The notes under the pieces: generated by a model | What the model was told of the DNA's origin: nothing | Databases searched by the model: none | The model's input: the letters and a program-made list of their open reading frames with translations, nothing else | In this document: one piece after another, positions 1-37,097 of the stretch | How the letters are laid out: each line of letters opens with the position of its first letter | How positions within the stretch are numbered: the stretch's first letter is position 1 | DNA from: Deltaproteobacteria bacterium | Lineage (GTDB): Bacteria; Desulfobacterota; Dissulfuribacteria; Dissulfuribacterales; QOAL01 | Direction of reading: 5' to 3' | Length of the DNA stretch: 44,509 bases | Assembly (NCBI GenBank): GCA_015494395.1 | Contig: WGBG01000177.1 | Coordinates: forward strand, 1-44,509 | Program-made: the position numbers and the translations under genes

Positions 1-175
1 CCGCGAAAGAGGAATTCCCATAATAGTCGGCTATATGGGGATTCCTCTGACAAAGGAGATGCAGTAAATACGGCAATCCAGAAGGGTTTCAAAATCTGGA
101 AAGCTATAATCGACATAACTCCTTTTAATTCCATTAAAAAAATAATTTTCCGGATTTTGAAACGCTCAATCTAGG
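1..175 (+). repeat. Family 1 palindromic element, copy A (left end cut by window edge)
   Basis: Long form of a dispersed non-coding element, missing its left terminal repeat because the window begins inside it. It holds the central hairpin (GAATTCCCATA pairing with TATGGGGATTC, one mismatch). A second module follows whose arms, GTTTCAAAATCTGGAAA and TTTCCGGATTTTGAAAC, form another hairpin. It ends in CGCTCAATCTAGG, the right terminal inverted repeat. Compared by eye with the copies at 14218, 29392 and 35182. Confidence 0.85.
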
Positions 176-183
176 TTATATTA

Positions 184-305
184 TCTGGTTGAGTGATATC
201 CAGGTTTTCTGCATATCCCCTGAAGGGGGATTCCCACTGTAGTGGGCTATGTGGGAAGTACGATAACAAAAGATATGCGGTGAAGCTGGCAATACCTTAA
301 TCTGG
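184..305 (+). repeat. Family 1 palindromic element, copy B (diverged short form)
   Basis: Directly follows copy A. The left end (CTGGTTGAGTG) and the order of blocks match family 1, but the sequence has drifted and the right terminal repeat is hard to recognise. The central hairpin is of the TTCCCAC/GTGGGAA subtype, shared with the copy at 29392 and different from that of neighbouring copy A. No second hairpin module is seen. It lies just downstream of the stop of the hybrid kinase on the minus strand. Confidence 0.7.
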
Positions 306-342
306 GAATTTATATGGGGTTCATGAAGTTACTCCCCGTGGT

Positions 343-8534: not shown

Positions 8535-8579
8535 TTAATTTCGCTTATATGCTGCAGAATTGAATAGAGGGGGCGTCCC

Positions 8580-8807
8580 ATGTCTATATCCGTGCAGTTA
8601 ACACCAGATATAGAGAAACGATTAACAATCTTGGCAGAGTCAACTGGTAAGCCCAAAGATTTTTACATTCGCCAGGCCATTCAGGAATACCTTGATGACC
8701 TGGAAGATATTTATCTTGCTGAAAAACGGTTAGAGGATCTGCAGAAGGGCTTGAGCAGAACATATTCACTTGCAGAAGTGGAGCGTGAACTTGGCCTGGA
8801 AAATTGA
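8580..8807 (+). CDS. RelB/CopG-like ribbon-helix-helix antitoxin
   Basis: A 75-residue protein beginning MSISVQLTPDIEKRL, a typical ribbon-helix-helix start: the beta strand SISVQL, then helices with TGKPKDFYIRQAIQEYL. The C-terminal acidic tail (DDLEDIYLAEKRLEDL, then LAEVERELG) would wrap the toxin. An AGAGGGGG motif precedes the start. Family members bind their own promoter and neutralise a RelE-type ribonuclease. The toxin reading frame begins inside the last codons of this gene, as is usual for relBE, but the toxin is frameshifted (8785-9055). This antitoxin may therefore be an orphan or act on other toxins. Confidence 0.85.
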   Translation: MSISVQLTPDIEKRLTILAESTGKPKDFYIRQAIQEYLDDLEDIYLAEKRLEDLQKGLSRTYSLAEVERELGLEN

Positions 8808-9055
8808 ATTTGAAAAAAATGCCAAAAAAGAGTTAAAAAAAATTGATCGCCATGCCCAAAGAGTGATCTTACGTTTCCTTCGGGAAAAAATCGCTACCAA
8901 TGAGAACCCTCGCAGATTTGGAGGGCCATTAACTCGTAGGACTTTGGAAGTATCGTATTGGCGATTATCGTTTGATATGTGACATCCAGGAAGAGAAAGT
9001 GGTTGTATTAGTCTTGCGGGTGGGGCACAGAAGAAAAATTTACGGCGGCCACTGA
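8785..9055 (+). pseudogene. RelE-family mRNA interferase toxin, frameshifted
   Basis: The frame from the GTG at 8785 (or TTG at 8791) encodes a normal RelE start (LAWKIEFEKNAKKELKKID, then [21 protein letters not shown]) and hits a stop at 8980-8982. From about 8940 the next frame encodes the missing half, [16 protein letters not shown], then [15 protein letters not shown], ending at 9053-9055. In intact relatives about four residues separate the PLT and GLW motifs; here only four bases do. This is consistent with an 8-base deletion. The RelE core arginine and tyrosine motifs are all present but split, so the toxin should be inactive unless frameshifting rescues it. A sequencing error cannot be excluded. 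Confidence 0.85.
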
Positions 9056-9162
9056 AAGAAGTGGCTGAGCTTTTTGCAGGAAAAAATTTATGTATGCACC
9101 AAATCCGACAATTGCTCGATCTTGGTATCACATAATTTTATTTGAATTCGGAGGAGAAGCTA

Positions 9163-14217: not shown

Positions 14218-14341
14218 CCTGGATTGAGCGATTGTCCGATTTGCTGCAGATCCGCGAAAGAGGAATTTCCATAATAGTCGGCTATATGGAAATTCTTCTG
14301 ACAAAGGAGATGCGGTGAATCCGGCAATCGTTCAATTCAGG
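14218..14341 (+). repeat. Family 1 palindromic element, copy C (short form, complete)
   Basis: A 124-bp single long imperfect palindrome. The left end CCTGGATTGAGCGATTG is matched by a right end whose reverse complement is CCTGAATTGAACGATTG. The central stem is GAATTTCCATA/TATGGAAATTC, perfectly paired but different from the copies at 1 and 35182. It lacks the second hairpin module of the long form: GGCAATC joins the terminal repeat directly. Its last 10 bases lie inside selB and include that gene's stop codon. Confidence 0.9.
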
Positions 14342-19698: not shown

Positions 19699-19730
19699 TT
19701 TTTAAGGGTAACGTAAACAGACGTATCTCT

Positions 19731-19950
19731 TCAGCGTGGTAAATGGTCTTGTTTTGGAGTGATTATGAAGAATTTCGTAGTTTTTCTTGGCGAAGCGCAG
19801 CCGCAAAAATCGCGTCTGTTTGAGCGAGGGACGAGCGAGTTTCGCGATTTTGGCGGAGCAAGCCTTAGAAAAACAAGAAATTGTTCACCGGAACGGAAAA
19901 ACAAGACCATTTACCAACCTTCATTAACATACAATACGCTGAACAGTTAC
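19731..19950 (+). repeat. Family 3 MITE-like element, copy 1
   Basis: The core at 19738-19915 (178 bp) has perfect 18-bp terminal inverted repeats, GGTAAATGGTCTTGTTTT and its complement. Inside are nested inverted repeats: GTTTTTCT/AGAAAAAC, and AAAATCGCG/CGCGATTTT around an AGCGAGGGACGAGCGAG centre. Similarity to the copy at 36866-37080 (in reverse orientation) extends past the core on one side, through CCTTCATTAA to CTGAACAGTT. It lies between ricT and holB and splits an otherwise tight gene cluster. Short reading frames within it are not convincing genes. Confidence 0.88.
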
Positions 19951-29391: not shown

Positions 29392-29599
29392 CCTAAGTTG
29401 AGCGATTGTCAGATTTGCTGCATATCCGCGAAAGAGGGCTTCCCACTATAGTATGCTATGTGGGAAGACCGATGACAAAGGAGATGCAGTGAAGCTGGCA
29501 ATCCCGAAGGGTTTCAAAATTGGAAAGCTATAATCAATATAACTCCTTTCAACTTCATTGGAAAAATGATTTTCCACATTTTGAAACGCTCAATCCAGC
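29392..29599 (+). repeat. Family 1 palindromic element, copy D (long form)
   Basis: A 208-bp long form. Left end CCTAAGTTGAGCGATTG, right end CGCTCAATCCAG. The central stem is CTTCCCAC/GTGGGAAG with an inner ATAG/CTAT, a subtype different from copies A, C and E but still fully paired. A second module carries GTTTCAAAAT and ATTTTGAAAC arms and a TATAAT sequence near 29529. It ends 15 bases before the GH57 gene, so it forms that gene's immediate upstream region. Confidence 0.88.
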
Positions 29600-34224: not shown

Positions 34225-34545
34225 ATGGCAAGACCACCCAAATGTCGTATAGTTGATCAGGAGCCTTCTGTAACATACTTTAAGCCCCGGGGAATTCCCC
34301 TGCGCAAACTTGAGGAGATAACTCTGACTGTTGAGGGGCTTGAAGCAATTAGGTTGTCAGACGTAAATGGGCTGGACCAGGATGCTGCTGCAAAGAGAAT
34401 GGGCATATCCCGCCAGACCTTTGGCCGCATCCTGTCCAAGGCAAGAAATACCGTTGCCCGTTCAATAGTAGAGGGCCTGGGCCTCAAGATAGAAGGTGGG
34501 CATTACAAGCTTGCAGATGAAATTAATGAGGCGGATGGGAAATGA
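34225..34545 (+). CDS. DUF134-family small DNA-binding protein
   Basis: A 106-residue protein of the DUF134 family, which begins MARPPKCR. The middle has a sigma-region-4-like helix-turn-helix, [32 protein letters not shown]134 proteins are small predicted regulators common in anaerobes, with unknown targets. The stop overlaps the start of the cyclophilin gene (ATGA), so the pair is translationally coupled. Confidence 0.85.
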
Positions 34546-35144
34546 AGCTGAATACAGTAAAAATTTTTGCATTGCTCATCTCCATCGCATGTCTGCTGGT
34601 TTTTACGAAAGGAACAGCAATGTCAGATAACAAGAATCCTAAGGTACTTCTCAAGACCAGCATGGGTGATATTGTAATTGAGCTTTACAGCGACAAGGCA
34701 CCCATAACTGTAAAGAATTTTCTCAGATATGTGAAGGAGGGCAAGTATGACGGCACCATTTTTCACAGGGTCATAGACGGATTCATGATTCAGGGCGGCG
34801 GCATGACCCCTGACATGAAGGAGCGGGACACCCACGCCCCTATCAAAAACGAGGCAGCAAACGGGCTTCCCAACGACAAGGGCACCATTGCAATGGCACG
34901 CACCCAGGTAGTGGATAGCGCCACGTCCCAGTTTTTTATAAATCTAAAGGACAATGACTTTCTGAACCACCACGATGACTCTCCCCGCGGTTATGGATAT
35001 GCAGTATTTGGCAAGGTGGTCAAGGGCATGGATGTTGTTGAAAAGATAGGCCATGTAAAGACCGGAGCACGGGGTTTCCACAGGGATGTCCCGGTTGAGC
35101 CTATCATCATTGAAAAGGCTACCCTGTTGACGGAAAAAGAATAA
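34542..35144 (+). CDS. Cyclophilin-type peptidyl-prolyl isomerase with signal peptide
   Basis: A 200-residue PPIase that speeds proline cis-trans isomerisation in folding proteins. The catalytic segment [14 protein letters not shown] is followed by [19 protein letters not shown] and [15 protein letters not shown]. The full-length frame begins with a signal peptide ([15 protein letters not shown]), so the product should be periplasmic. A second in-frame ATG at 34620 (codon 27) follows AAAGGA by 7 bases and would make a 174-residue cytoplasmic form lacking the signal, so the gene may yield both. It overlaps the DUF134 gene by 4 bases. Confidence 0.92.
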
Positions 35145-35181
35145 GGGGTTATTTTAATCGCCTTGCTCAATTCAGGTAAAA

Positions 35182-35389
35182 CCTGGATTGAGCGATTGTC
35201 GGATTTGCAGCAGATCCGCGAAAGAGGAATTCCCATAATAGTCGGCTATATGGGAATTCCTCTGACAAAGGAGATGCAGTGAATCCGGCAATCCCGAAGG
35301 GTTTCAAAAGTAGACGAGTATGATAAATGTAACTCCTGTGAATATCGTATAAAATCATTTTTTCAAACTTTTGAAACGCTCAATTCAGG
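35182..35389 (+). repeat. Family 1 palindromic element, copy E (long form, best preserved)
   Basis: A 208-bp long form. The ends are CCTGGATTGAGCG and CGCTCAATTCAGG. The central stem is 15 perfect pairs: AGAGGAATTCCCATA (35223-35237) and TATGGGAATTCCTCT (35249-35263) around an 11-base loop. The second module has TTTCAAAAG/CTTTTGAAA arms. A detached terminal repeat, GCTCAATTCAGGT at 35165-35177, stands three bases before the left end and is the near-complement of it, as if another copy once abutted. The element ends 10 bases before the TPP riboswitch. Confidence 0.92.
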
Positions 35390-35399
35390 TAAGATTTGA

Positions 35400-35509
35400 A
35401 TCGTTAGGGGAGTCCGGGGAGCCGGGCTGAGATACCGTCTATGATCTCCATGTCACCGACGGTGACCCTTACTGACCTGAACTGGATAATGCCAGCGCAG
35501 GGAAACGAT
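35400..35509 (+). promoter_or_regulatory. TPP riboswitch (THI element) upstream of thiC
   Basis: Conserved THI-box blocks are present: GGGGAG near 35407, GGGCTGAGATACC near 35424-35436, ACCTGAACTGGATAATGCC at 35475-35493 and GCGCAGGGAA at 35494-35503. ATCGTT (35400-35405) and AACGAT (35504-35509) close the P1 helix. A terminator follows, so binding of thiamine pyrophosphate should stop transcription before thiC. Confidence 0.95.
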
Positions 35510-35534
35510 GTTTGCATATTGAAAATTGCAGATA

Positions 35535-35560
35535 CCGCCCCTAAGCAGGGCGGTTTTTTT
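35535..35560 (+). terminator. Intrinsic terminator of the TPP riboswitch
   Basis: CCGCCC (35535-35540) and GGGCGG (35548-35553) form a stem with a CTAAGCA loop, followed by seven T. It sits between the riboswitch and the thiC ribosome site and is the expected off-switch. Confidence 0.9.
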
Positions 35561-35581
35561 GTTTGATGCGGAGGAAATGCA

Positions 35582-36847
35582 GTGGAAATGACATTGCTAC
35601 AGGAACTTAGGGCAGGCAAAACCCCTGAAAAACTGGTAAGTCTTGCTGAAAGTGAAAATATTGATATTGAGGAACTGAAGAAGAACATCCTCTCTGGTGA
35701 GGCCGTGGCGCTTGGTTACAGAACAGGCCGTGGCCCAATGATAGTAGGTAAGGGGGTTACCACCAAGGTCAATGCCAATATCGGCGCAAGCACCCTCTGT
35801 TCCTCCATTGATGAGGAGCGTGACAAGCTCATGGCAGCCCTCGGCGCCAGGGCTGATGCTGTTATGGACCTCTCCCTTGCTGACAATATTGTTGAAATCA
35901 GGGAGATGATCCTCGAAAAATCCACTGTTCCCGTGGGCACTGTGCCTATCTACGAGGCTGCGACCCTTGCGAGGATAAGAAGGGGCGCTGTAATCAAGCT
36001 GGATGATGAAGAGTTTTTTGATGTGCTTGAAAGGCAGATGGCCGAAGGGGTTGATTTTGTTACTGTTCATGCCGGTGTTGTAAAGAAGCTTGTTGACCGG
36101 TTTGATGAAGATGCGCGGCTTGAGGGAATAGTCTCCCGTGGCGGAGCAATAACTGCCGCCTATATCAAAAAAACCGGCAGGGAAAATCCCCTTTATGAAT
36201 ATTATGACAGGCTCCTTGACCTTGCAGAAAAGTATGACTGCGTTTTAAGCCTTGGAGACGGAATGCGTCCAGGGGCAATCAAGGACGCATCGGATTTCTT
36301 TGAAGTTGGAGAACAGGAAATACTTGGAGAGCTTCAGGAGCGTGCATTCAAGCGGGGTGTAATGGCAATGATTGAAGGCCCGGGGCACGTGCCCCTGCAC
36401 CTGGTGGAAAAATCCGTTAAGCGCATTAAAAAACTTACAAATAACGCCCCGCTCTACCTGCTTGGCCCAATAGTTACTGATGTTGCACCTGGATATGACC
36501 ACATAACCAGTGCAATTGGCGCAGCCCATGCCGGTATGGCAGGCGCAGACTTCATCTGCTATGTAACTCCGTCCGAGCATCTGGGTCTTCCAAAGGCAGA
36601 GGATGTGCACCAGGGGGTAATTGCAGCGCGCATAGCAGCCCATGCCGCAGATATTGCAAAGGGGCTTCCTGGCGCCGAAGAGTGGGACAGACAGATTTCA
36701 GTTGCGCGAAAGGCCCTTGACTGGGACAGGCAGATAGAGCTTTCCATTGATCCTGAACGCTCTGCCAGGGTTCGGCAGGAACGCTCCGGAGGCGGTGCAT
36801 GCACCATGTGTGCAGAGTACTGCGTATTCCTGGTGCTTAAAGACTGA
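35582..36847 (+). CDS. thiC: Phosphomethylpyrimidine synthase
   Basis: A 421-residue radical-SAM enzyme that rearranges 5-aminoimidazole ribotide into hydroxymethylpyrimidine phosphate for thiamine. The GTG at 35582 follows GGAGG by 7 bases. Motifs are VNANIGAS, AVMDLSLADNI, VGTVPIYEA, DFVTVHAGV, SLGDGMRPGAIKDASD, EGPGHVPL, YLLGPIVTDVAPGYDHI, and the C-terminal cluster cysteines C407, C410 and C414. It is the short form lacking the N-terminal extension of E. coli ThiC. The cysteine spacing is CX2CX3C, one residue shorter than the classic CX2CX4C. The related 5-hydroxybenzimidazole synthase BzaF is similar, but the TPP riboswitch supports ThiC. Confidence 0.93.
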   Translation: MEMTLLQELRAGKTPEKLVSLAESENIDIEELKKNILSGEAVALGYRTGRGPMIVGKGVTTKVNANIGASTLCSSIDEERDKLMAALGARADAVMDLSLADNIVEIREMILEKSTVPVGTVPIYEAATLARIRRGAVIKLDDEEFFDVLERQMAEGVDFVTVHAGVVKKLVDRFDEDARLEGIVSRGGAITAAYIKKTGRENPLYEYYDRLLDLAEKYDCVLSLGDGMRPGAIKDASDFFEVGEQEILGELQERAFKRGVMAMIEGPGHVPLHLVEKSVKRIKKLTNNAPLYLLGPIVTDVAPGYDHITSAIGAAHAGMAGADFICYVTPSEHLGLPKAEDVHQGVIAARIAAHAADIAKGLPGAEEWDRQISVARKALDWDRQIELSIDPERSARVRQERSGGGACTMCAEYCVFLVLKD

Positions 36848-36865: not shown

Positions 36866-37080
36866 CTGTTCAGTATTAATGTAATTTAATGAAGGTCGGT
36901 AATTGGTCTTCTTTTTCCGTTCCGGTGAATAACTTCTTGTTTTCTAAGGCTCGCTCTGCCAAAATCGCGAAACTCGCTGGTCCCTGGCTCAGACAGACGC
37001 GATTTTTATGGCTGCACTTCGCCAAGAAAAACTACGAAATTATTCAGAGTCACTCCAAAACAAAACCAATTACCACGCTG
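36866..37080 (-). repeat. Family 3 MITE-like element, copy 2 (inverted relative to copy 1)
   Basis: The core at 36898-37074 (177 bp) has ends GGTAATTGG and CCAATTACC continuing into imperfect T/A-rich arms. It is the reverse complement of the copy at 19731-19950, with shared blocks AAATCGCGAAACTCGCT, GACGCGATTTTTATGGCTG and CCAAGAAAAACTACGAAAT. Similarity extends left through TTAATGAAGG to CTGTTCAG. It fills the gap between thiC and kdsB, ending 18 bases before the kdsB start. Confidence 0.88.
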
Positions 37081-37097
37081 GGTACATACCACGTCTT

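Follow-up and report, generated by a model that had tools for sequence, protein, structure and literature searches.

In the window (the whole 44,509-nucleotide stretch of the Deltaproteobacteria bacterium genome that was analysed), the repeat adjoining the thiC TPP riboswitch, here called copy E, is a non-autonomous MITE of a new family of well-known bacterial type, and probably rides in the thiC transcript rather than supplying its promoter. On comparison with related leaders, E has likely inserted in the transcribed 5′ leader of thiC, with the start of transcription lying upstream and the element forming a folded spacer that leaves aptamer and terminator control intact. Features of the locus and family copies in the window are listed in Table 1.

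Table 1. Coordinates of the thiC locus, of copy E and of further family copies in the window
Feature	Position	Strand	Remarks
Copy A	1-176	+	Same family as E, cut by window edge
Module-1-only copy	14218-14341	+	124 bp; target duplication 4/5 bases
Copy D	29392-29599	+	TATAAT subfamily
Cyclophilin-type peptidyl-prolyl isomerase gene	34542-35144	+	Upstream of thiC; PF00160, 168 bits
Candidate native thiC promoter	35127-35155	+	TTGACG-17-TATTTT; overlaps cyclophilin stop codon
Detached TIR	35164-35176	+	TGCTCAATTCAGG; orthologous TGTTCAATCTAGG in G001
Left target-site duplication	35177-35181	+	TAAAA
MITE copy E	35182-35389	+	208 bp; ends CCTGGATTGAGCG...CGCTCAATTCAGG
Left TIR of E	35182-35194	+	CCTGGATTGAGCG; TIR pattern scan
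Module 1	35194-35293	+	Long imperfect hairpin
Module 2	35299-35379	+	Second hairpin; holds TATGAT
Right TIR of E	35377-35389	-	CCTGAATTGAGCG read on minus strand
Right target-site duplication	35390-35394	+	TAAGA
TPP riboswitch aptamer	35396-35520	+	RF00059, 66.4 bits (gathering 54.3)
Intrinsic terminator	35534-35561	+	Riboswitch expression platform; 35534-35554 intact
thiC	35582-36847	+	PF01964, 553 bits

Copy E belongs to an abundant MITE family

A sequence-only reading had taken the repeat for a mobile element, which was borne out by its TIRs, 5-bp target duplication, copy number and empty orthologous site, E being absent from thiC in the relatives G001 and G002. The two target duplications of E agree at 4/5 bases, with one mismatch, and no open reading frame of ≥90 aa lies inside 35182-35389, E thus being without a transposase gene. 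A genome-wide census, which is a lower bound, found at least 40 near-full-length copies across the 3.2-Mb, 206-contig draft genome, and the 13-bp TIR pattern gave 121 genome matches against 0 with a reversed-pattern control, so that the family cannot be put down to chance. Among the 53 candidate TIR pairs with readable flanks, which include a few spurious pairings, 37 had an exact 5-bp flanking duplication outside CCTG...CAGG and 44 had at most one mismatch there, compared with exact matches in only 0-3 of the 53 at lengths of 2-4 and 6-10. The target preference was TNNNA (T in 39/53, A in 39/53).

Element lengths cluster at 208 bp. Three elements of 101 bp, each with an exact 5-bp duplication, consist of module 2 only (in L025, a 101-bp copy aligned with the module 2 portion of the query), and because these and the 124-bp module-1-only copy occur as separate elements, the two hairpin modules appear to move separately. 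Contigs C9, C43, C44, C80, C176 and C200 of the same genome end within family copies, indicating that the repeat breaks the assembly and that the true copy number is probably above the census. At the edge of the window (1-310), two diverged copies stand in tandem, the second from about 183. Elsewhere in the window, at 8560-9060, a toxin-antitoxin-like small pair was recognized by eye, with a CopG-like frame followed by a RelE/ParE-like frame.

Family members were present in both same-genus genomes and sparse elsewhere in the bacterial family, and TIR matches in relatives were few. No matching TIR pair was found around the PF01609 (IS1634-, IS1182- or IS4-like) or PF13701 (IS1380-like) transposase genes of this fragmented assembly, and derivation from the elements found there was rejected. 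In length (100-200 bp), TIRs, target duplications, high copy number and long-stem transcripts, the family is like the bacterial MITEs that have been reviewed, including Correia/NEMIS, ERIC and RU (PMC2229807), but it differs from them in its TIR (CCTGRATTGARCG), its TNNNA-preferring 5-bp duplication, its two separable hairpin modules and its lack of an Rfam match. It is apparently undescribed before.

Two elements entered the thiC leader downstream of a promoter-like site

The leader itself resembles known TPP (THI-box) riboswitches of thiC in its RF00059 aptamer and intrinsic terminator, relatives carrying an equivalent GC hairpin and T-run, but is unlike them in having a mobile element between a promoter-like site and the aptamer. 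By ThiC, the nearest named relatives of the genome are deltaproteobacterial MAGs (JALWJV010000192, 99% identity; JALVQQ010000302, 90%). Given a first predicted P1 pair of 35400-35509, the gap of about 10 bases noticed by the sequence-only reading between the end of E (35389) and the riboswitch is correct, and its argument that the thiC promoter must lie within E or upstream of it is supported.

We compared 24 TPP-riboswitch leaders from 22 genomes, the genome of the window (G000) included. In 20 of the 24 leaders, a TTGAC -35 element precedes the aptamer by 34-47 nt, the four exceptions being G004, G020 and the invaded leaders of G000 and G001. The empty site is represented by G002, of the same genus, in which TTGACT-17-TATCAT lies about 40 nt from the aptamer and overlaps the cyclophilin stop. 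In the promoter region, G000 and G001 share CCCTGTTGACGGAAAAAGAATAAGGGGTTATTTTAATCGCCTTG without difference; next in both comes a TIR remnant (TGCTCAATTCAGG and TGTTCAATCTAGG, respectively), followed by E in G000 and by a second, 227-bp MITE in G001 with an exact 8-bp duplication, AATTTGAA. If the inserts are discounted, about 56 nt separate TTGAC from the aptamer in the invaded leaders, near the family range. The shared remnant and the different inserts together indicate that two different elements have inserted in the stretch that runs from the promoter-like site to the aptamer, the remnant predating E. The remnant in the window, one mismatch from the family 13-mer and 5 bp away from E, is probably what is left of an older copy. 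A detached terminal repeat near 35165 had already been pointed out as a sign of repeated insertion, which its presence in G001 beside a different MITE upholds. About 40 nt of promoter region are identical in G000 and G001, yet at 35164-35181 the remnant differs at 3/13 bases and the target bases beside it also differ. Gene conversion of the remnant with the right end of E is possible.

The G001 insert and E are both MITEs that landed in the same leader, but the former is unlike E in its TIR (GTAWCTGTTCAGCGTA), its 227-bp length and its 8-bp duplication. Its family, whose end sequence and duplication length resemble those of IS66, also occurs in the window as two copies inverted to each other, with CTGTTCAGCG-type ends (19723-19946 and 36877-37089). 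As a parent, the IS66 transposase locus L153 in the genome of the window was rejected, having no matching ends.

From these comparisons we infer the promoter activity of 35127-35155, the start site and the tolerance of E. The element would have inserted immediately before the TPP aptamer, about 20 bp past the point where transcription from the ancestral promoter is expected to begin, and beside the end that remains of an older copy. Transcripts would begin before E, at the conserved promoter near 35127-35155, as read-through from the cyclophilin operon, or both, and E would form a folded spacer in them ahead of the intact aptamer and terminator that exert control. E may be tolerated in the 5′ UTR since the riboswitch and terminator that follow it are undamaged. 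In THI-box attenuation, aptamer and terminator control transcription; with the terminator at 35534 intact and no intrinsic terminator found between the cyclophilin gene and the aptamer, transcripts from upstream of E should remain TPP-controlled.

That absence of a terminator, together with the mere 22 nt or so that separate aptamer from cyclophilin stop in G002, would also suit a thiC gene that lacks a dedicated promoter and depends entirely on read-through from the aminotransferase-DUF134-cyclophilin operon. We consider this unlikely, given that TTGAC recurs at the same aptamer distance in relatives with different upstream sequence. The TTGAC of the native site falls within cyclophilin codons, which may account for part of its conservation, and G002 has a stronger -10 (TATCAT) than the native TATTTT.

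The element RNA folds strongly in all copies

The RNAalifold consensus of the family has 59 pairs, comprising a TIR closing stem, the long module 1 hairpin and the module 2 hairpin, with 96.7% of cells paired and compensatory (both-sided) changes in 11 pairs, more than in any of 500 shuffles or in the slid controls. E folds at about -90 kcal/mol. Plus-strand RNA was more stable than minus-strand RNA in 37/37 copies (mean -92.5 vs -73.5 kcal/mol), an advantage that comes mostly from four fixed GU pairs (ancestral mismatches, 4 GU and 0 AC). When the structure was derived without GU, derived GU columns numbered 31 against 26 for AC, which makes the evidence for strand-specific selection on the element RNA weak, and such selection was rejected.

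The strength of the fold, its compensatory pairs and the plus-strand advantage would be expected if the RNA structure of E functioned in the thiC leader, altering how the mRNA is processed, its stability or the folding of the riboswitch, as ERIC and Neisseria MITE RNAs have been reported to affect mRNA (PMC2229807). This reading is improbable, however: copies throughout the family share the structure in varied surroundings, the GU excess over AC is slight, and the predicted fall in P1 pairing from 0.71 to 0.12 is the same when E is taken out (0.135, a value that 31% of shuffled leaders attain), so that disturbance of P1 folding by E was rejected as well. Less likely still is that selection acts on the folded plus-strand RNA as a functional module placed before riboswitch leaders and altering mRNA processing or riboswitch output; if it were, MITE hits would rewire thiamine regulation in this genus.

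E is a poor candidate for the thiC promoter

Promoters were scored with an approximate sigma-70 matrix, and the scores concern sigma-70-like promoters only. The native site was the best in 35101-35399 (score 10.5), a score reached by 1.6% of shuffles within 35101-35181, and the best site inside E scored 7.8, which was reached in 41% of shuffles. The sequence-only reading had seen possible outward -10 motifs (TATAAT in copies A and D, TATGAT in E at 35319-35324) and no good -35; the motifs are present, and the lack of a good -35 agrees with the shuffle-level score. A sigma-70-like promoter sequence inside E was rejected on this ground, and E is an unlikely promoter-donating insertion element.

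We therefore find it very improbable that E gives an outward promoter in module 2 (TATGAT, or TAAAAT at 35350) that now drives thiC, even though the best in-element pair, ATGTAA-17-TAAAAT, is also the best site in 12/37 copies, with a GTGTAA variant in 7, and putative promoters occur in some MITEs of Neisseria (PMC2229807). Apart from its chance-level score, the candidate motif (TATGAT/TATAAT) sits inside the module 2 hairpin, and the genes nearest the copies showed no preferred orientation (to the right of copies, 15 gene starts against 11 gene ends; to the left, 9 against 10), a balance expected of neutral intergenic insertions and not of portable promoters. The earlier suggestion that E had provided or replaced the thiC promoter was not supported by sequence comparison: TTGACG-17-TATTTT survives ahead of the insertion in both invaded genomes, and TTGACT-17-TATCAT occupies the same register in the same-genus empty site. 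A thiC start upstream of 35165 is instead predicted by this comparative evidence.

Implications

The literature that we searched contained nothing relevant on MITEs in riboswitch leaders. The genus offers a clean natural comparison, with an empty site, a TIR remnant followed by a second MITE, and a TIR remnant followed by E, and it cautions that adjacency alone is no basis for inferring promoter replacement. The arrangement of these leaders suggests that insertions are readily accepted between promoter and riboswitch because control sits downstream in the attenuator, making this stretch a permissive landing site. An abundant and apparently undescribed MITE family is also documented here in uncultured deltaproteobacteria.
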